A stretch of DNA of 24,131 bases, taken from the IMG/VR virus record IMGVR_UViG_3300042892_003610, positions 1 through 24,131 of that record. One strand, 5' to 3'. Source of the stretch: a virus. Below are positions 3,722 through 15,554 of the stretch, piece after piece (the stretch's first letter is position 1; each line of letters opens with the position of its first letter). Made by a program: the position numbers and the translations under genes. Below the pieces are notes generated by a model. The model was not told where the DNA came from and did not search any database. It saw nothing but the letters and a program-made list of their open reading frames with translations.

Positions 3722-4129
3722 CTAATTTTGTTGTTTTTTAAATGATTTTAATAATCCATTTATATTTTCATAACCAGATGGGTTTGCTGAATGAACAATA
3801 AAGTCTGGTAGTTTTAAATCATTATCAATACAATAATCAACTAACCATTTTGCTGAATCCATTCCAGTATATTCTCGGTTATTGTCAATATCAAACCATT
3901 CCTCAATTGGTAGAACCCCCTTTAAGTTTGTATCATCACCCAAGTCATGGTCAAATGAAATTAAATCAGGTAATCCATTTTTTTCAATCCATTTAACGAA
4001 TTGACCATGTGACCTAACAATATCCCATTCTTCATAGTATATGTTTAAATCAGAAACCCTATAACCCATGTAATGGATTTTAGGACAATTTAATGGTACT
4101 CTTAAGTCATCCAAAAATAATCTTTTCAT
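3722..4129 (-). CDS. cyclic-phosphate processing receiver-like (cREC) protein
   Basis: This 135-aa protein matches the pattern of the cREC family: LFLDDLRVP at residues 4-12, SFDHDLG at 58-64, TGMDSAKWLVDYC at 88-100 and VHSANPSGYENI at 112-123. Paired aspartates at 7-8 and in FDHD mimic receiver-domain metal sites. The family was predicted to process cyclic phosphate ends of nucleotides or RNA, a prediction that I am recalling and have not tested. Its last base is shared with the next gene's frame (1-nt overlap at 4129), suggesting coupling. Confidence 0.8.
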   Translation of the reverse strand: MKRLFLDDLRVPLNCPKIHYMGYRVSDLNIYYEEWDIVRSHGQFVKWIEKNGLPDLISFDHDLGDDTNLKGVLPIEEWFDIDNNREYTGMDSAKWLVDYCIDNDLKLPDFIVHSANPSGYENINGLLKSFKKQQN

Positions 4130-4392
4130 TAGTTTTCATTTTGGTAATACTCAGCACCTGAACCTTCAACATACTTAACTGAATTACCTATCTGTGCAAA
4201 CATTGGTTTTTCAGTATGTGAACAAATATGTATTTCTCTAGTATTAATCTTCATTTTCAATATAGGTATTCTAACATCATTTATTAATGTTAGTTCTAAA
4301 CCTTCTAAATCAATATTATCATCAATTAGAATATGAACACAATGTTCAGTATCAGCACTAACTGACCAGCCTTTTTGTAGCATATTATTCAT
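4129..4392 (-). CDS. hypothetical protein
   Basis: This 87-aa protein is unrecognised. It alternates short beta-like segments (VHILIDDN, LELTLIND, ILKMKIN, EIHICSH) and could be a small beta sandwich or barrel. ATG codons exist at 4392 and 4383. The first is chosen because it overlaps the upstream stop by 8 nt in an AATGAATAA arrangement. It abuts the cREC gene downstream. Confidence 0.65.
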   Translation of the reverse strand: MNNMLQKGWSVSADTEHCVHILIDDNIDLEGLELTLINDVRIPILKMKINTREIHICSHTEKPMFAQIGNSVKYVEGSGAEYYQNEN

Positions 4393-4681
4393 TTATAATT
4401 TCCGTAATTAAAACCCATTCATCACATGTTGGTGAACTCTCTTGAAAGTCAGCATCAAAATGTCTTATTAAATATTCTGGCTCTAAACCGTAGTCACCAA
4501 ATAAAAACTGAACAACCGCAATGTATTGACCATCACCACCATCAACAAGTGTTTCATAGACTTCTTGGTCTTCAGTATATTTCTTACTAACTTGCCAGTC
4601 TTCATGCGGGTCAAGAATATTAGCAATTCTGATTAATTTATCATCAGAAATATTTTTAATCATTTCTCTTGTTAAGTTCAT
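4385..4681 (-). CDS. hypothetical acidic protein
   Basis: This 98-aa acidic protein is unrecognised. It has a helical N-terminus (LTREMIKNISDDKLIRIANI) and a GGDGQY turn in the middle. It is 12 nt downstream of the orphan NUMOD-like gene and overlaps the next one by 8 nt, so it is probably in the same transcript. No promoter motif is visible. Confidence 0.65.
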   Translation of the reverse strand: MNLTREMIKNISDDKLIRIANILDPHEDWQVSKKYTEDQEVYETLVDGGDGQYIAVVQFLFGDYGLEPEYLIRHFDADFQESSPTCDEWVLITEIINE

Positions 4682-4920: not shown

Positions 4921-4956
4921 TAGTGATGTGTTATGAGGGTTAGCCATTAGTTATAA
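4921..4956 (-). repeat. distal edge of cassette array, truncated attC (A)
   Basis: On the minus strand TTATAAC (4950-4956) follows the stop of the last cassette gene by 7 nt. It is the R'' box expected for this cassette, since it is complementary to the GTTATAA that opens it at 5189-5195. After it the sequence reads TAATGGCTAACCCTCATAAC. It lacks both the usual G after AAC and any recognisable L'/R' arm, so the attC seems truncated where the array meets phage DNA. Confidence 0.5.
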
Positions 4957-4963
4957 GAAATAG

Positions 4964-5158
4964 CTACGATTCTTTTTCATAAGCAACTATTTCCTCTAAA
5001 AAAATGCAATCCGTAGGGTATTCATCAATATTGTAAGATTGACCTACTAATTTACAACTTACACAATTTGCCCCCATATCAAAAGACCATTCAATATATT
5101 CAGGGCAATTTTTACTTTTACAAAATTCGTTAAAGCATTTTTTTTCATTCGTTTCCAT
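4964..5158 (-). CDS. cassette 8: small cysteine-rich protein
   Basis: This 64-aa protein carries seven cysteines: CFNEFC (8 and 13), NCPEY (18), NCVSCKL (32 and 35) and DCIF, arranged in pairs that could bind zinc or an iron-sulfur centre. The core 'CPEYIEW...CVSCKLVGQSYNI...YPTDC' resembles small cysteine-rich proteins seen in Flavobacteria and their phages, with no known function. It lies in the distal cassette: R' of attC B is 31 nt upstream of its start and the R'' box is 7 nt after its stop. No promoter is visible, so it must be read from upstream. Confidence 0.65.
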   Translation of the reverse strand: METNEKKCFNEFCKSKNCPEYIEWSFDMGANCVSCKLVGQSYNIDEYPTDCIFLEEIVAYEKES

Positions 5159-5188
5159 AATTACGTTTGTTTAATGAACCGCTACTTC

Positions 5189-5322
5189 TTATAACAAGTG
5201 TTTGGCAAAAAAGCGGTTTTGGTTATTAATTTAAAGTTTGTTTTTTATTATCGTGTTCTTGGCTTCGGGAAAACGATAGTTTTTATTTATCCGCTTCTTC
5301 GCCAAGCACTCGAACGTTATGC
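5189..5322 (-). repeat. attC-like site B
   Basis: Minus-strand R'' is GCATAAC (5316-5322) and R' is GTTATAA (5189-5195). The arms around GCTTGGCGAAGAAGCGG and CCGCTTTTTTGCCAAACAC pair imperfectly with unpaired bases, as in integron attC sites. A second internal stem (ATCGT/ACGAT) forms the variable end. It is about 134 bp long and visibly richer in GC than the phage backbone. Confidence 0.75.
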
Positions 5323-5323
5323 G

Positions 5324-5563
5324 TCATTGCAATCCATCCCACAATGCCAGTGCCGACATCGTTGCAAATAATAATTGTCGTGGATACCATAAATACCATC
5401 TGCAATTAACCATCTTTATTCCGCAAGGCACTGTCAACCACAACGCCATCACACACCCATACACAATACTACTGCACCAAGCACCTGTTATTATCTGTAA
5501 TAACAATATCGGAAGTGCAGCGTATTTTCGCCAAGCCACAACCACGCTATGCAACGAACGCAT
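5324..5563 (-). CDS. cassette 7: small membrane protein starting inside R'
   Basis: This 79-aa protein starts MRSLHSVVVAWRKYAALPIL and continues with two strongly hydrophobic segments (about residues 14-25 and 31-46), then WYLWYPRQ and a third hydrophobic patch. It is a multi-pass or hairpin membrane protein of unknown role. The chosen ATG (5561-5563) lies inside the R' box GTTATGC, a common arrangement in integron cassettes, and the TGA stop is 1 nt before R'' of attC B. A longer frame to 5608 would begin inside attC C and is less likely. The codons are much richer in G and C than in the phage genes, so the cassette probably comes from another genome. Confidence 0.65.
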   Translation of the reverse strand: MRSLHSVVVAWRKYAALPILLLQIITGAWCSSIVYGCVMALWLTVPCGIKMVNCRWYLWYPRQLLFATMSALALWDGLQ

Positions 5564-5684
5564 AACACGGGTTTGGCAAAATGGCTGTTCGGTAATTCTA
5601 TCAATCATTTGTTTTTAATTTTAAGTTCAGTAATTCTATCAAACATTCGGTTCAGCCACTTCGCCAAGCCCGATAACGTTAGGT
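5560..5684 (-). repeat. attC-like site C
   Basis: Minus-strand R'' is ACCTAAC (5678-5684) and R' is GTTATGC (5560-5566). The arms GGGCTTGGCGAAGTGGCTG and CAGCCATTTTGCCAAACCC pair with mismatches. The 13-mer GTAATTCTATCAA occurs twice (5592-5604 and 5630-5642) inside the loop region. Its inner arms (CTTGGCGAA, TTTGCCAA) resemble those of site B. Confidence 0.75.
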
Positions 5685-5702
5685 TCAATTAAAAACATAC
5701 AA

Positions 5703-5888
5703 TCATCTCCAATTAAGTGTTTTTAATAAGTCTTTACCATCTATAATATAGAATAATTTTTTATAGGTCTCAAGTAAATCCATACTAAAAGAACCACACA
5801 AACCATATTCGGTTTTATAACCTATCATTGTTCCATTGAAGGAACTACTCCTTTCCTCTCTTATCCAAAGAATATTTATATTTTCCAT
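5703..5888 (-). CDS. cassette 6: hypothetical protein
   Basis: This 61-aa protein starts MENINILWIREERSSSFNGT and contains an MIGYKTEYGLCGSF segment. No family is recognised. It is soluble by composition, with a helical C-terminal half. The TGA stop is 18 nt before R'' of attC C, and the start is 37 nt after R' of attC D. No promoter motif is present, which fits read-through expression of the array. Confidence 0.6.
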   Translation of the reverse strand: MENINILWIREERSSSFNGTMIGYKTEYGLCGSFSMDLLETYKKLFYIIDGKDLLKTLNWR

Positions 5889-5925
5889 TAATATTTTAAA
5901 TTTATTTCTAAATGTTTTTAACTAA

Positions 5926-5979
5926 ACCTAACAAATGATAAACAACATTAAAACGATTGTTTATCATCAGACGTTAGCA
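5926..5979 (-). repeat. attC-like site D (short form)
   Basis: Minus-strand R'' is TGCTAAC (5973-5979) and R' is GTTAGGT (5926-5932). The 11-bp stem ATGATAAACAA/TTGTTTATCAT is perfect, with spacers of 5 and 2 nt next to the boxes. It is 54 bp long and almost identical to site G: apart from the R'' end they differ by one base (CAG versus CGG). Confidence 0.75.
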
Positions 5980-6222
5980 AACATTAAAGAAAGCCTTTGC
6001 ATTATCAACACTACCGTTTTTAACATAATTTGGATACACAACATCGTTAAAATGTTTTAACTGTTCTTTGTACCAATTGCCACTTTCTCTATTTAACACA
6101 GACATTGCAGTAGTTCCGTCAAAATCTTCATTGTCTGTGTATCTCATTTTTTCATCAAGATGTTCATCAGCATAACAAGTAGCTATCCACCTTGCAAATA
6201 AAAACATTTTAACTTCATCCAT
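5974..6222 (-). CDS. cassette 5: hypothetical protein, stop inside R''
   Basis: This 82-aa protein starts MDEVKMFLFARWIATCYADE and is acidic and aromatic-rich. No family is recognised and no membrane segment is certain. Its TAA stop is formed by the R'' box TGCTAAC of attC D, an arrangement typical of integron cassettes. Its start is 13 nt after R' of attC E. This shows that the gene and the recombination site are one unit. Confidence 0.65.
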   Translation of the reverse strand: MDEVKMFLFARWIATCYADEHLDEKMRYTDNEDFDGTTAMSVLNRESGNWYKEQLKHFNDVVYPNYVKNGSVDNAKAFFNVC

Positions 6223-6235
6223 AATAATAAACGTT

Positions 6236-6328
6236 TGCTAACAAGGTATATACGCAATACCCTATTAAGGTTTGTACTAAATTTAAAATTTCTCCATCGG
6301 GTACTGCGTATATACCCAATCGTTATGT
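6236..6328 (-). repeat. attC-like site E, belonging to a gene-less cassette
   Basis: Minus-strand R'' is ACATAAC (6322-6328) and R' is GTTAGCA (6236-6242). The arms GGGTATATACGCA and TGCGTATATACC pair, with a further partial stem inside. The cassette that owns this site runs only from about 6242 to 6349 (108 bp), with 15 nt besides the attC and no ORF. Confidence 0.7.
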
Positions 6329-6343
6329 AACATTAAAACGCTT

Positions 6344-6476
6344 ACATAACATCAAGTATAAGAAATTGGGGGTTATGAGTCTATTGAGAACTTCGGCTTC
6401 TATAACTGACCCGATTCGATGAACCCACGCCAACTTTTTCAAGTCCCCAACTTTTTATACTTGCGATACGTTAGGT
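6344..6476 (-). repeat. attC-like site F
   Basis: Minus-strand R'' is ACCTAAC (6470-6476) and R' is GTTATGT (6344-6350). The arms GCAAGTATAAAAAGTTGGGG and CCCCCAATTTCTTATACTTG pair imperfectly. The loop contains further GC-rich material (6380-6445). It is about 133 bp. Together with site E it fills the 263-nt gap between genes at 6223-6485, which holds no gene. Confidence 0.7.
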
Positions 6477-6485
6477 CCAATTAAA

Positions 6486-6683
6486 TTATTGTTTTGAGTT
6501 TATTTCTTTAATAAAGAGTTCGTAAGCCTCTTCTTGTACCTTATTACTCATACTCCAAAAATCATCTAAAACTTGTTGATTGCTCACCCACTTAGCAAAT
6601 TCTATTGCGAGTGATTTTGGATTTATATATATTTCTACATCGCCCTTTGCTGATATACCTGGTGATTCAAATTTATTTTCCAT
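6486..6683 (-). CDS. cassette 3: hypothetical protein
   Basis: This 65-aa protein contains SLAIEFAKWVSNQQVLDDFW and EAYELFIKEINSKQ. The 'LAIEFAKW...YELFIKE' pattern is one I recall from small Flavobacterium phage proteins of unknown function. The TAA stop lies 9 nt before R'' of attC F; the start lies 41 nt after R' of attC G. No promoter is seen. Confidence 0.6.
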   Translation of the reverse strand: MENKFESPGISAKGDVEIYINPKSLAIEFAKWVSNQQVLDDFWSMSNKVQEEAYELFIKEINSKQ

Positions 6684-6724
6684 ATTTTCTATTTTTTTAA
6701 TCGGTAAAACAATAATTTAACTAA

Positions 6725-6778
6725 ACCTAACAAATGATAAACAACATTAAAACGATTGTTTATCATCGGACGTTATGC
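6725..6778 (-). repeat. attC-like site G (short form)
   Basis: Minus-strand R'' is GCATAAC (6772-6778) and R' is GTTAGGT (6725-6731). It has the same 11-bp stem and loop as site D, and the TTTAGTT that follows R' is also shared with D. The two cassettes opened by these R' boxes have unrelated genes. Confidence 0.75.
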
Positions 6779-6991
6779 TCAAGTGCTTTCAATTTCTATA
6801 ACCTTTAACTCGTAGCGTTTTCCACCTAAAGAAAACTGAAACCGCTCGTCTGTCTTTAATAAGTTTTCAGCAACACTAGCAACAGCATCTTCAGTTACAT
6901 CATGCTTTTCTCCAATCCACATTCCTTTTTTAACTTTACCTACGTAAATTCTACTCGTTAAAGGTGAGCAACCTATTTTAAAATCTGACAT
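6779..6991 (-). CDS. cassette 2: DUF7446-like small protein
   Basis: This 70-aa protein starts MSDFKIGCSPLTSRIYVGKV and continues KKGMWIGEKHDVTEDAVASV, ending with a strand pair GKRYELKVIEIE. The 'KIGCSPLTxxIYxGKV...W..KHDVTxxA' pattern is that of a small family (DUF7446-like) common in phages and environmental bacteria, with no known function. Its TGA stop directly abuts R'' of attC G with no gap. The start is 42 nt after R' of attC H. Confidence 0.65.
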   Translation of the reverse strand: MSDFKIGCSPLTSRIYVGKVKKGMWIGEKHDVTEDAVASVAENLLKTDERFQFSLGGKRYELKVIEIEST

Positions 6992-7033
6992 TTCTGTTAA
7001 TTTATAAAGTTTATTTTTCTATCTCGCACCTAA

Positions 7034-7089
7034 GCATAACAGCATCTTAGCGCAACTTTCAGTATGCGCTAAGTTGCCTACCGTTATAA
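7034..7089 (-). repeat. attC-like site H (short form)
   Basis: Minus-strand R'' is TTATAAC (7083-7089) and R' is GTTATGC (7034-7040). The arms CAACTTAGCGCATA and TGCGCTAAGATG pair over AACTTAGCGCA with one bulge. It is 56 bp long. Confidence 0.75.
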
Positions 7090-7095
7090 ACCATA

Positions 7096-7302
7096 TTAAA
7101 AGATGAACCATCCAAAGAACTTTTCTAAATATGGAAGTATTCCTAACCACATTATTAGCTTAAATAACCCTATACCAATCCATTTACCAACATTCGCTGA
7201 TACTACCACAATCAATAAACCAAAGAAAATACGGCTTATAACAGCACCTATATTCAATTGCGGTTTTTGTGGTTCATTCAAGTTTTCATTTTCTAATTTC
7301 AT
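7096..7302 (-). CDS. cassette 1: small membrane protein
   Basis: This 68-aa protein has a proline- and asparagine-rich N-terminus (MKLENENLNEPQKPQLNIGA) followed by hydrophobic segments at about residues 18-38 (VISRIFFGLLIVVVSANVG) and 42-58, with a further aromatic tail EKFFGWFIF. Two membrane passes are likely and function is unknown. The stop is 6 nt before R'' of attC H. It is the first (most upstream) cassette of the array. It may have its own promoter (7330-7358), which would be the only one in the array. Confidence 0.65.
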   Translation of the reverse strand: MKLENENLNEPQKPQLNIGAVISRIFFGLLIVVVSANVGKWIGIGLFKLIMWLGILPYLEKFFGWFIF

Positions 7303-7329
7303 TTTATCTTAATTTAAAGTTTTCGTTTT

Positions 7330-7367
7330 CAAAGTTCGCAACTAAATATAGCTGCAAAACGTTATAA
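7330..7367 (-). promoter_or_regulatory. proximal edge of array with candidate promoter
   Basis: The minus strand opens with TTATAAC (7361-7367), matching the six bases needed to open cassette 1, but a C replaces the usual G before it. Inside lie TTTG (7355-7358) and GAACTTTG (7330-7337), 17 nt apart. That is a one-mismatch TAnnTTTG with a shorter spacer than in other promoters here. A small stem (GTTTTGCA with TGCGAAC) spans the same bases. Confidence 0.35.
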
Positions 7368-7382
7368 GTAATAAAATAAAAA

Positions 7383-7474: not shown

Positions 7475-8008
7475 TTAATCCCACCATCTATTGATTTTTT
7501 TGGACATGATTCTAAATACTAAATCCTTAGCTTTTTCTTGTCTTAAGTCACCCATAATCATAGCAACTAATTTTTTATCATTATGGTCAGTAGTAAATCT
7601 TTTTTGATTTTCTTTAATAAAGATAATTGCTCGTTTATGCCACGTTGGAAACTTTCTAAAATACGAATCAAAATCTTCACTGATAGTATTAATATTTATT
7701 TCACTATAACCTGGTTTATCTTCAATATCTGTAAATATCATTTCACTTTCATGGTAATCAGTATATTCTGAATCGTAATAAGAGTCTTTAACTTTATTAA
7801 TTAAATCAGCACAAATTAACATATCTTTAGCATCTTCTTGTGCCCTGGTATGTCTATCCTTACTACCGATATAATTAGATTGTCTCCTTAATTTAAATTC
7901 AATAATCTGATATATAAACCAAGAGTCCCAATCCCTATCTTTCCAAATTATAGGTAACCAAGCCCATAGATTACTAATTCCTATTTTTAAGGTTCTAAAT
8001 ATTCTCAT
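7475..8008 (-). CDS. conserved-looking phage protein
   Basis: This 177-aa protein begins MRIFRTLKIGISNLWAWLPI and continues IWKDRDWDSWFIYQIIEFKL, then RRQSNYIGSKDRHTRAQEDA. The 'WxPIIWKDRDWDxxFIYxIIxxKL' opening is one I associate with hypothetical proteins of many large phages. The second half is helical and basic and ends KKINRWWD. No catalytic motif is recognised. The ATG directly follows the stop of 8009-8248 (TAAATG), so the two are co-translated. Confidence 0.75.
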   Translation of the reverse strand: MRIFRTLKIGISNLWAWLPIIWKDRDWDSWFIYQIIEFKLRRQSNYIGSKDRHTRAQEDAKDMLICADLINKVKDSYYDSEYTDYHESEMIFTDIEDKPGYSEININTISEDFDSYFRKFPTWHKRAIIFIKENQKRFTTDHNDKKLVAMIMGDLRQEKAKDLVFRIMSKKINRWWD

Positions 8009-10226: not shown

Positions 10227-11114
10227 TTAATTCTGAAATAATTCCATTTTGATGCCTCTTCGATTCATATTTATTTTCATGATTTTTAAAGCTTTCTTTC
10301 TAACTTGTCTTACACCTTCTCGACTCATGTCAACTTTATGACCAATTTCAACTAAACTTAATGGTTCATAACCATTTAATCCATAAGTTAGTGTTATAAT
10401 TTCTTTTTGTCTACAATCAAGAGTTGTCATGATTGAATCTAATACTGATTGTAAATCATTATTGTTAACTAAATGGTCAGCACTTAATGAATTACCGTTT
10501 TCAAGTACATCAATCATTGAACCACTATCCGAATCACTAGTGAATGGTGTGTCTAATGACATAACTGACATAGTATCTAAACTTAATAACATATTAATGT
10601 TATCAAAATTCAAATCAGAACCTTCAAGTCCAACCAAATCTTGAGCAGCTGTTGGTCTTTGGTTGATTTGTTCTAGACCAGACATTTCTCTCTTAAGTTT
10701 ATTCAACTCAGTAATTCTATTTATTGGAATTCTAACAGTTCTAGAATACTTGTTCATGTAATCTGTCACATTTTTTCTTATATACCAAACAGCATAAGAT
10801 ATGAATTTGAAACCACGACTTGGGTCGAACTTTTGAGCAGCTTCAATTAAGCCATAGTTGCCCTCATTAACCAATTCTTCAAGTGGTGATTTAGCATTGG
10901 TATATTGTTTAGCCACACTAATTACAAACTTTAAATTTCTCTCAATCAATTCATTTAAAGCATCACTATCCCCATTGAAAGCTTTAATCGCACATTGATA
11001 TTCTTCATCTGCGGTTTCAAATGATTTGATTGCTCTAACATCCATTAAGTATTGAGCGAATGCTTTTGATGATGTTCTGTCTGTAATTTTTTGGCTAATT
11101 TTTAATTGTCTCAT
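10227..11114 (-). CDS. RNA polymerase sigma factor, RpoD-like
   Basis: This 295-aa protein directs RNA polymerase to promoters. Region 1.2 is at about residues 15-45, region 2 at 58-128 (NLKFVISVAKQY, LVNEGNYGLIEAAQKFDPSR, GFKFISYAVWYIR), region 3 at 133-190 and region 4 with its helix-turn-helix at 225-283 (LSLVEIGHKVDMSREGVRQV). The N-terminus MRQLKISQKITDR is nearly that of the Bacteroidetes primary sigma, so the gene was probably captured from a host of that phylum. A large share of promoters in this window fit the host consensus. It may therefore redirect or reinforce host-type transcription. Confidence 0.92.
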   Translation of the reverse strand: MRQLKISQKITDRTSSKAFAQYLMDVRAIKSFETADEEYQCAIKAFNGDSDALNELIERNLKFVISVAKQYTNAKSPLEELVNEGNYGLIEAAQKFDPSRGFKFISYAVWYIRKNVTDYMNKYSRTVRIPINRITELNKLKREMSGLEQINQRPTAAQDLVGLEGSDLNFDNINMLLSLDTMSVMSLDTPFTSDSDSGSMIDVLENGNSLSADHLVNNNDLQSVLDSIMTTLDCRQKEIITLTYGLNGYEPLSLVEIGHKVDMSREGVRQVRKKALKIMKINMNRRGIKMELFQN

Positions 11115-11123
11115 ATATTTATT

Positions 11124-11564
11124 TTAAATTTTTACGTTAAGTTCTCGTTCTAAATCACGTTTTTTAATTGTATCACGTTTATCGTGAAGCTTTTTACCTC
11201 TACATAGTGCTATTTCAATTTTTATTAAACCTTTGTCGGTAATAATAACACTAATTGGTACTATTGTCAACCCTTTTTGCTCTACATTTTCATTTAATTT
11301 TATTATTTCTTTTTTGTTCAACAATAATTTCCTTAACCTGGTTGGTTCATGATTCGTATGAATACCACTTTGTTTATATTCAGATATATTCATACCTTTA
11401 ATAAACAGTTCGTCATTTTTAATATAACAATAACCCTCAGATATTGACACCTTATGATTACGTATTGATTTTACTTCACTACCAATTAGTTTGATACCAG
11501 CTGTTAGTTTATAAATAAACTCATATTCAAATGAAGCTTTTTTATTTCGTGTTATAACTTCCAT
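11124..11564 (-). CDS. smpB: SsrA-binding protein SmpB
   Basis: This 146-aa protein is SmpB, which binds tmRNA and the decoding centre of stalled ribosomes during trans-translation. Hallmarks are NKKASFEYEFIYKLTAGIKL, then IGSEVKSIR and SEGYCYI in the OB-fold body, and the C-terminal HDKRDTIKKRDLERE tail that enters the mRNA channel. A longer frame to 11600 exists. The ATG at 11564 is preferred because the promoter -7 element (11577-11584) lies 12 nt upstream of it and the longer frame would run through the promoter. SmpB is unusual for a phage. No tmRNA gene was seen in the window. Confidence 0.92.
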   Translation of the reverse strand: MEVITRNKKASFEYEFIYKLTAGIKLIGSEVKSIRNHKVSISEGYCYIKNDELFIKGMNISEYKQSGIHTNHEPTRLRKLLLNKKEIIKLNENVEQKGLTIVPISVIITDKGLIKIEIALCRGKKLHDKRDTIKKRDLERELNVKI

Positions 11565-11576
11565 AATTAATTTTGA

Positions 11577-11608
11577 CAAAGGTAAGGATAATAAAGACAT
11601 TATCCAAA
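11577..11608 (-). promoter_or_regulatory. Bacteroidetes-type promoter for smpB
   Basis: TACCTTTG (11577-11584), a 20-nt spacer and TTTG (11605-11608). It fixes the smpB start at 11564 with a short leader, and probably also drives the sigma gene 9 nt downstream of smpB. Confidence 0.85.
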
Positions 11609-12967: not shown

Positions 12968-14011
12968 ATGATGAGAATTATGACATTTGAGAATATCAAT
13001 AGATTAAGTAGTATGTACTACTTAAATAAAGCAATTAATGAATCTAAATTGCTTGTCGAATCATACCCAAATGTTAATTCTTTATTATTAGAAGCTGATG
13101 ATGATTCAGCATCTTATGAATGGGATTTTGTTAATAATAAATTCTATGATAGAGTAAATAATATTGAAACTGATATTAAAAAATCAGCATCATATGTTAG
13201 AACAGCTGAACAAGGTATAGATTTCATTAAGACATTAGTTGCTAAAGTTGCTGAATTACCAGATAAATTAAAATCTCGTGTTGTTAAGGTAGCAATAGCA
13301 TCAATGGCATTAACAATGGGTTATAATCAATTGGTTGATGTTGATAGCAAAGTAGATGCTTTACCTAAAAACAATGTAGTAACGATGGTTGGTGACCTAT
13401 TAGATAATGCTATAACTAAAAAAGAAGTACCACAAAAAGCCGAAAAACCTGTAGTAAAAGAAAAGTTTTCAAATAAAATAATTGATTTATTAAAAACTCA
13501 TGAAGGTATTGGTGGTAAACCAGTACTTACCGCTTATAATATTGGTGACGGTGCATATACAATTGGATACGGTCACGCTGTATTTAAGGATATTTCTAGA
13601 GGTGATAATAGTAGTAGTTATGATTTCTTAGTATCATACGATGAGTATGAAAAAATGAAACAAAGAGGTGAAAAGGTAACCATAACACCAGAACAAGCTG
13701 AACAATTATTAAAAGATGATGTTAAAATAGCGGCTGAAGGTTTAGATAGATTGTTGAATGAATGGAAAGCTGATGGTGTTAACCCTAAAATAACTCAACC
13801 TATGTATGATGCTATGGTTTCAATGATTTATAATATGGGTGTTACCACATTTAGAAAAAGTGAATTTATTCAATTAGTAAAACGTGGTAAATTTAAACAA
13901 GCTGCTGAAGCAATTAAAAGCACCAGCAGCCAAATGTTTAGAAAATATCCAGGATTAATAGTTAGAAGAGGTGATGAGTCTCAAACATTCACAGGTAATT
14001 ACCCAACGTAA
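12968..14011 (+). CDS. T4-type (GH24) lysozyme with long N-terminal extension
   Basis: This 347-aa protein carries a GH24 muramidase domain from about residue 165: KTHEG with catalytic E179, GDGAYTIGYGH with D194, T198 and the GYGH turn, and MVSMIYNMGVTTFRKSEF later. It cuts peptidoglycan between MurNAc and GlcNAc. The first 160 residues are a non-catalytic extension that begins with a basic helix and has LVE-S (residue 31) and LLE-A (residue 42), both T4-protease-like sites. It may therefore be packaged or virion-associated rather than an endolysin. It is the only plus-strand gene before 23740 and sits inside a split RNase R gene. ATGs at 12968, 12971 and 12980 are all possible starts. Its 3' end overlaps the RNase R stop by 13 nt. 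Confidence 0.88.
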   Translation: MMRIMTFENINRLSSMYYLNKAINESKLLVESYPNVNSLLLEADDDSASYEWDFVNNKFYDRVNNIETDIKKSASYVRTAEQGIDFIKTLVAKVAELPDKLKSRVVKVAIASMALTMGYNQLVDVDSKVDALPKNNVVTMVGDLLDNAITKKEVPQKAEKPVVKEKFSNKIIDLLKTHEGIGGKPVLTAYNIGDGAYTIGYGHAVFKDISRGDNSSSYDFLVSYDEYEKMKQRGEKVTITPEQAEQLLKDDVKIAAEGLDRLLNEWKADGVNPKITQPMYDAMVSMIYNMGVTTFRKSEFIQLVKRGKFKQAAEAIKSTSSQMFRKYPGLIVRRGDESQTFTGNYPT

Positions 14012-15537
14012 CCATCGTTACCCAATACACCACTAATTATTCTATGGAATATTAAATCAGGATATCTTCTGATTGGGCTAGTTGTATGCATATAAAACTT
14101 AACACCTAAACCATAATGTCCTATATTTTTAGTTTGATAATTAGCTTTGGTCATGCATCTAACTACTAAATTATTAATTATATTTTCTTCTGGTGTATCT
14201 TTAACTTCCTTAAGTAACCCATTTAGTTTATCCTTAATCTTATTATCATCAGATAAGTCTAATTTATAACCAATCAATTCTATAAATGTTTTTAGTGATT
14301 CTAATCTAGTTGGGTCTGGTTCATCATGTGTTCTATGCAATGTCACAACACCTTTTTTTGTTACGTATTCACAAACTTGTCTGTTTGTTAAAACCATAAA
14401 TTCCTCAATCAACCAATTTGATTCTTTTTGCTCAGTAAAATAAACGCCAAGTGGGTTTCCATTTAAATCTAAATCAAACTTAACTTCAGAACCTCTAAAT
14501 TTTAATGAATTTTTATCACTTCTAATTTTTCTTATTTTACTTGCGTATCGATTCAAATCTAATATAGCTCTTTTTAACTCTTTATTATAGATGTCACCAC
14601 CTTCAATTACTTTTTGAACTTCAGTATATGTTAATCGGTAATTTGAATTGATTATACCACGACAAAACTTTTCTTTAATTACTTTACCATTTTGGTCAAG
14701 TGTGAATATAAATGAATAAACTAATTTATCAGTATGTGGGTTAAGTGAACAAAGATTGTTACTTAATTTTTCTGGTAACATTGGTACAACCCTATCAACT
14801 AAATAAACCGATGTACCACGTTTATATGCTTCATCATCTATAGCTGTATTTGGTTTTACATAATAAGATACATCCGCAATATGAACAGCAACTTCAATAT
14901 TACCATCAACCCATTGTACTGATAAGGCATCATCTAAATCTTTAGCTGTTTCACCATCAATAGTAAAAGTTAATATGTCACGCATATCTAATCTTTTAGC
15001 TATTTCTTTTTCTGAAATAACATCTGATATTAATTCAGACTCATTAATTACATTTTGTTTAAATTCATATGGTAGATTATATTCTTCCAATATACTATGA
15101 ATTTCAACATCATTATTACCTGATTGACCTAATACTCTAATTACTTCACCATTAGGGTTTTTCTGATTATCACCCCAAGTTGTCATTTTCACAACAACCT
15201 TTTCACCATTAGATGCACCCATTGTTTTATTTAATGGGATGAATATATCAATATTCATTCGTTTATTATCTGGTATTAGAAAAGCATGCTTTAATGATAT
15301 TTGCATAGTACCAACGAACTCAGTCTTGAATCGTTCTACAATCTCAATTACCTTACCTTCAAATTGACCATTATCAGTTTTGGTTAATTCAACTTTAACT
15401 ATATCTAAATGCAATGCTTTGTTTACACTACCTTTATTGATATGTATACCCTTTTTTATATCTTGGTTTGTAACATAACCTGAACCGAATCCCGTAAGAC
15501 CAATTTCACCAGTTACAATATCTCCTTTTTTAAACAT
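13999..15537 (-). CDS. rnr: RNase R catalytic part (RNB exoribonuclease), lacking S1
   Basis: This 512-aa protein has cold-shock-like domains in the first 180 residues and an RNB 3'-5' exoribonuclease domain with the acidic centre FTIDGETAKDLDDALS (D194, D200, D202, D203) and TTSPIRRYPDLIFHR near the end. It then stops at GNDGYVG, where normal RNase R continues through helices into an S1 domain. That missing part is the gene 12519-12902. RNase R degrades structured RNA and, in bacteria, works with SmpB-tmRNA on non-stop mRNAs; smpB lies 2.4 kb away. The open frame begins with TTG at 15540, but the ATG at 15537 is the likelier start. Confidence 0.9.
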   Translation of the reverse strand: MFKKGDIVTGEIGLTGFGSGYVTNQDIKKGIHINKGSVNKALHLDIVKVELTKTDNGQFEGKVIEIVERFKTEFVGTMQISLKHAFLIPDNKRMNIDIFIPLNKTMGASNGEKVVVKMTTWGDNQKNPNGEVIRVLGQSGNNDVEIHSILEEYNLPYEFKQNVINESELISDVISEKEIAKRLDMRDILTFTIDGETAKDLDDALSVQWVDGNIEVAVHIADVSYYVKPNTAIDDEAYKRGTSVYLVDRVVPMLPEKLSNNLCSLNPHTDKLVYSFIFTLDQNGKVIKEKFCRGIINSNYRLTYTEVQKVIEGGDIYNKELKRAILDLNRYASKIRKIRSDKNSLKFRGSEVKFDLDLNGNPLGVYFTEQKESNWLIEEFMVLTNRQVCEYVTKKGVVTLHRTHDEPDPTRLESLKTFIELIGYKLDLSDDNKIKDKLNGLLKEVKDTPEENIINNLVVRCMTKANYQTKNIGHYGLGVKFYMHTTSPIRRYPDLIFHRIISGVLGNDGYVG

Positions 15538-15554
15538 CAATTTTTATTTTTTTA

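Follow-up and report, generated by a model that had tools for sequence, protein, structure and literature searches.

Integrons are known as the means by which bacteria collect and shuffle genes. Phages have also been reported to carry cassette arrays, among them a phage of Polaribacter (Bacteroidota), and IntI1 used five of the six phage attC sites that were tested (Qi et al. 2023, PMC9892861). We analysed a viral record of 24,131 bases (IMG/VR record IMGVR_UViG_3300042892_003610, hereafter the window), for which an earlier note had proposed an integron-style cassette array inside a phage genome. Our analysis supports that proposal, and we give a probability of about 0.88 to the reading that the window carries an integrase-less integron cassette array, belonging to a phage-encoded integron family. 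This family resembles bacterial integrons, both class 1 and sedentary chromosomal ones (TIGR02249), in a recombinase gene that diverges from the array, an adjoining attI site, attC hairpins with R boxes (NNNTAAC/GTTANNN), complementary cassette ends and an extreme diversity of genes. It differs from them in its enzyme, since bacterial IntI, a clade apart, carries the I2 patch and has 133 amino acids between catalytic boxes where the phage enzyme has 86. It differs also in its cassettes, since in classical ones the gene has its attC site at the 3' end.

Because PMC9892861 reported them before, cassettes in a phage alone are not new; the new part is the phage-encoded platform. That study likewise described integrase-less attC arrays in virulent phages, with a cargo of short unknown genes and DNA methyltransferases and with attC sites that IntI1 can use. 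However, its elements, detected through IntI and attC models, were either entire bacterial integrons carried by temperate phages or clusters of attC sites lacking an integrase (CALINs). In contrast, the present family has a patchless recombinase concentrated in viral contigs, an attI and attC type of its own, cassettes with inverted genes and a distribution across large phages. Within open-licence PMC full text, preprints excluded, we found no paper on phage-encoded integrons besides PMC9892861, although absence there is no proof, and no phage platform in which a patchless recombinase goes with inverted cassettes and with an attI and attC type of its own.

The cassette array of the window

Sites were located with an attC finder that demands a motif and a paired stem (NNNTAACG..NTGTTANNN, span 35-190 nt), with 60 dinucleotide shuffles as control. 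In the window we found eight attC sites, all reported on the minus strand within 5195-7367, with scores of 19-28.5; at scores of 18 and above, the shuffles gave a background of 0.08 sites per window. The interval 4951-7361 is divided into eight cassettes, one of them without an open reading frame (ORF). Thus eight units stand as the earlier note had counted them, but its seven hairpin sites are eight. The cassettes, their boundaries and the flanking phage genes are the following.

4951..5316, plus strand: cassette 1, TTATAAG.. and then attC 5189-5316; gene 4964-5158 on the minus strand, 64 aa
5317..5678, plus strand: cassette 2, attC 5560-5678; gene 5324-5608 on the minus strand, start within attC
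5679..5973, plus strand: cassette 3, attC 5926-5973; gene 5703-5888 on the minus strand
5974..6322, plus strand: cassette 4, attC 6236-6322; gene 5974-6222 on the minus strand
6323..6470, plus strand: cassette 5, attC 6344-6470; no ORF
6471..6772, plus strand: cassette 6, attC 6725-6772; gene 6486-6683 on the minus strand
6773..7083, plus strand: cassette 7, attC 7034-7083; gene 6779-6991 on the minus strand, DUF7446 (PF24233)
7084..7361, plus strand: cassette 8, attC 7236-7361; gene 7096-7302 on the minus strand, start within attC
4940..4960, plus strand: left insertion junction, TTAGCCATTAG/TTATAAG, attG-like; the related contig L001 departs from the window here
7356..7375, plus strand: right insertion junction, AAAACG/TTATAAGTAATAAAA; TTATAAGTAATA also flanks the array of the relative L004
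7475..8008, minus strand: phage flank gene, probe for relatives, encoded in at least 251 viral stretches
4385..4681, minus strand: phage gene of the other flank, directly adjoining the 7475-8008 homologue in the array-free relatives L005 and L006

Between consecutive sites, the variable bases that follow GTTA at the first pair with those that precede TAAC at the second; in all seven units between sites three of three bases are complementary (about 10% of random pairs). In the eighth unit (4951-5195), beside the left boundary, the ends match by eye (TTATAAG at 4951, CTTATAAC at 5189). The comparison of R boxes thereby bears out two earlier claims, namely that each unit begins with the complement of its own R'' box and that this pairing joins neighbouring hairpins rather than the arms of one. 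Folding also agreed with the proposed hairpins: seven of the eight attC sites folded clearly better than their shuffles (z -2.7 to -5.7), with z -1.6 for the remaining one.

Neither an attI motif nor an adjoining integrase was found at the left junction, there was no PF00589 match anywhere in the 24 kb, and an Rfam search of the window returned zero matches. With eight attC sites, where at least two are needed, and no integrase nearby, the window is a CALIN by definition. Outside the array, the products of 10227-11114, 11124-11600 and 13999-15540 resemble by eye an RpoD-type sigma factor, SmpB and RNase R, and are candidates for these.

Relatives were collected through homologues of the flank gene 7475-8008, and as the earlier note had anticipated, cassette content varies among them. 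The separate contig L001 matches the window at 99.85% identity from 16008 through the array to 4950 and has other cassettes beyond. L002 and L003 follow the window at 96.3% identity down to 7082, at the first attC, and then carry different cassettes, while in L004 the flank is 95% identical and the array is different. The close relatives thus part from the window exactly at crossover points. Judged from these sequences, the array of the window is real, belongs to a phage genome and undergoes turnover. The DUF7446 cassette body recurs in the L004 array at 99.6% identity with differing attC on both sides. Within the window, the attC sites of cassettes 3 and 6 (5917-5976 and 6716-6775) are 98% identical over 60 nt, with unrelated genes. 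Cassette bodies and attC sites therefore seem able to separate.

In the more distant L005 and L006 (75-79% identity), the array is absent at this locus and the flanking genes adjoin. The gap relative to the window, 7450-4694, exceeds the array, so that these loci are not exact empty sites; L006 has the same kind of array elsewhere. The flank gene 3722-4129, used as an empty-site probe, gave four loci only.

A recombinase family beside the same attC type

The attC core pattern was found in at least 120 viral stretches, on contigs of up to 464 kb. These sites have what defines an integron attC, that is paired R and L boxes, a hairpin and complementary cassette ends: three of three end bases match in 248 of 310 units over all viral loci and in 167 of 208 units at integrase loci, again versus about 10% of random pairs. 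Of 198 folded sites, 196 have a one-sided bulge of 3-4 nt as the sole loop beside the R boxes. A tyrosine recombinase was matched in 17 of 50 viral records with arrays and, in the regions examined, lies at the array end.

A scan with aligned sequences extended this recombinase to at least 101 viral loci. The enzyme has 265-268 aa at most loci, and its catalytic residues are invariant. Its catalytic boxes are 85-87 aa apart (69 of 69), compared with 91-97 in Xer-like enzymes and 133 in IntI, and IntI4 aligns with it in two pieces, with 80 aa versus 32 between them. Given this spacing, the IntI patch (I2 helix) is absent; of the tyrosine recombinase with an IntI patch that the earlier note had proposed to look for, the recombinase exists in related phages, the patch does not. 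XerA (NF040815) is the best NCBIfam match (176-197 bits for three enzymes, below the cut-off of 220), while TIGR02249 gave 151-164 bits against a cut-off of 265. In the tree, IntI forms a separate clade (100/99), and the phage enzymes form one clade with a single chromosomal gene, L377 (100/99), beside chromosomal patchless enzymes (97/91). Classical IntI as the phage enzyme was ruled out by patch spacing, scores and tree. An AlphaFold2 model of the phage integrase from a 12-row alignment reached a predicted local distance difference test score (pLDDT) of 69 and a predicted template modelling score (pTM) of 0.47 and was not used.

The chromosomal member of the phage clade (L402:8127-8930, 268 aa; also L377) has no attC within 8 kb and is possibly a prophage or domesticated copy. 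The nearest plasmid relatives of the phage recombinase (H56-H80, about 49% identity over 83%) are genes annotated TnpF or 'tyrosine-type recombinase' on Acinetobacter plasmids.

We counted attC sites within 6 kb on either side of the recombinase loci. Upstream, 310 sites lie on the same strand and none on the opposite strand; downstream there are none on either. Sites were present at 50 of the 52 loci with at least 2 kb of upstream sequence. At most loci TATNATATAT directly follows the recombinase-proximal R box (NNNTAAC). This conserved attI motif was detected at 71 of 77 phage integrase loci versus 4.6% of control windows, and usually lies 43-59 nt before the presumed start codon of the recombinase, or farther where the start is unsure. 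Five phage pairs (L279/L282, L281/L282, L329/L330, L322/L323 and L275/L277) are 99.8-100% identical over 1.2-6.9 kb through the recombinase. Their divergence begins 0-3 nt from attI and the adjoining cassettes are mostly unrelated, as expected from insertion or loss at attI. On the sequence evidence of a linked recombinase, attC sites on one side and one strand, attI and divergence at attI, large phages encode complete integrons, many of them with a T4-type capsid gene. The T4-type major capsid protein Gp23 scored above cut-off on 14 of 40 integrase-bearing contigs (up to 362 kb) and also on contigs of distant relatives of the window's flanking gene, but on none of the window's closest, short contigs.

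On the 122.6-kb contig of G041, locus L260 comprises an integrase-linked array and a second one, with 17 attC sites and no integrase nearby, that starts about 7.5 kb past the integrase and runs toward the contig end. Action in trans within one genome is therefore plausible. The same contig holds a homologue (L034) of the window gene 7475-8008.

The cassettes are diverse, with 216 ORFs of at least 70 aa falling into 189 clusters. Among 87 representatives we identified C5 and N6/N4 DNA methyltransferases, Mom, the Thoeris inhibitor Tad3, an RNA ligase, an exoribonuclease and GNAT proteins, the majority being without identification; the cargo probably consists of accessory and counter-defence genes. 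The relatives of phage and recombinase suggest a Bacteroidota host. Classical IntI exceeded the curated cut-off in 105 of 396 genomes of the phylum of G035, which is higher than expected for that phylum.

Could the window's array instead have been captured from a bacterial chromosomal integron and be moved in trans by the IntI of the host, as an ordinary CALIN? The window has no recombinase, phage CALINs with attC sites usable by IntI1 are known (PMC9892861), and classical IntI is common in the sampled bacterial phylum. However, a scan of 84,980 bacterial and archaeal genomes for the attC core of at least 120 viral stretches gave only 8 stretches, of which two (L208, L210) are true arrays, and none of the genomes concerned has an IntI above cut-off. 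Furthermore, the window's attC type is that of arrays linked to the phage recombinase, and different phages have cassettes in common. We therefore regard this origin as unlikely.

Cassette polarity and gene starts

In the window the attC polarity, in the classical sense, is on the plus strand, and all array genes are on the minus strand. Each attC thus lies at the 5' end of its gene, the reverse of the normal cassette. The pattern TAACA..CGTTA is that of classical attC top strands. Read on the other strand, the phage loci show the classical order, with the integrase to one side of attI and the cassettes to the other, and with inverted genes. Homologous bodies that share a single hairpin share the 5' one seven times and the 3' one once, so that the mobile unit is the attC plus the gene downstream of it.

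About a fifth of the cassette genes start in their own attC, as do 7096-7302 and 5324-5608 in the window. Such genes might be N-terminal fusions, formed by exon-like shuffling of a leader and the body of the next cassette. In this sense, of 86 leaderless bodies, whose frame extends through the R box in the GTT phase, 62 follow an attC with an in-frame ATG, and one body (L154/L155) occurs with two different leaders. But the 5' hairpin travels with its gene 7:1, from which it follows that leader and body are normally one cassette, and the leader ATG is tied to the upstream attC (odds ratio 20, P=6e-24) and not to the attC at the other end (P=0.68). Shuffled fusion proteins looked strong early and were dropped after the co-inheritance test, which places leader and body in one cassette; we hold fusion to be improbable. 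A translation start near or within a recombination site is also known from ORF-11 of attI1 and from ORFs in class 1 attC sites (PMC8876359). ORF-11, however, overlaps the crossover point yet ends there and works via translational coupling, whereas in the phage cassettes the gene's own start codon lies in attC and the frame continues through the R box.

The chromosomal XerA-like recombinases of Bacteroidota (NF040815, 'site-specific tyrosine recombinase/integron integrase'; L404, L410, L416-L418) are likewise patchless and form the sister clade, and 12 of 13 foldable sites of this family share the one-sided 3-4-nt bulge. They differ in that the recombinase is mostly longer, on the strand of the array and with its 3' end toward it, and in the classical gene orientation (ORF, then attC). 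Tools that require the patch would call the five loci L404, L410, L416, L417 and L418, each a patchless XerA-like recombinase followed by an attC array, CALINs; their phylum is taken from the name of the centre genome.

Mode of exchange and its meaning

Ordinary homologous recombination between repeated attC sites, rather than a site-specific reaction, is a very improbable source of the variation. Near-identical sites in different cassettes, as in cassettes 3 and 6, would permit such exchange. Yet divergence sets in 0-3 nt from the crossover, most pairs have no flanking homology in the neighbouring cassettes, and homologous exchange does not create the inverted-complement cassette ends seen in about 80% of units. 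It can practically be dismissed that the array is an assembly artefact or that its hairpins are terminators or other fixed structures between genes: the hairpins do lie between short genes and several contigs of relatives stop within the array, but the complementarity links neighbouring hairpins, the separate contig L001 is near-identical across the array, and dozens of independent contigs have arrays beside one recombinase family.

Several points weigh against our main reading. The window and L001-L004 are fragments in which the recombinase was not found, and the array is consequently tied to the phage recombinase by attC type and relatedness, not by linkage. Of 29 homologous body pairs, five differ in both flanking hairpins, where simple cassette exchange fails. 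Finally, the patch that the phage enzyme lacks is held necessary for recombination of single-stranded attC (PMC7790495).

The attC and attI sites, cassette ends, one-sided linkage, gain or loss at crossover points and inverted genes can be read from the genomes compared here; that the recombinase carries out the reaction, and on a folded single strand, we infer. In its complete form, the phage would encode a compact XerA-like tyrosine recombinase, with the top strand of the cassettes reading away from attI and the integrase in the other direction. The enzyme would join a circular cassette, through its attC, to attI at G/TTA, and would excise and reinsert cassettes, so that phages could swap small accessory genes singly. 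The array of the window would then occupy a secondary, attG-like site and be served in trans by a recombinase from elsewhere in the phage or from a co-infecting phage.

For the origin of the integrase patch, a lack of intermediates has been named as a problem (PMC7790495). We slightly favour the view that the large-phage lineage never had or has lost the I2 patch, that the one-sided 3-4-nt bulge replaces the extrahelical bases in attC recognition, and that together with the chromosomal sister family it represents either a missing intermediate or an independent solution on the way from Xer-type to integron recombination. For a direct test of the patch requirement, natural enzymes are available in the patchless recombinases of this widespread viral platform, which integrase callers that require the patch would miss.

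Our findings suggest that viruses run a gene-capture system of their own and do not merely borrow the bacterial one. Large phages thereby gain a site-specific route to trade small genes and, since the cargo includes DNA methyltransferases, Mom modification and a Thoeris inhibitor, the array may serve them as an exchange route for counter-defence genes.

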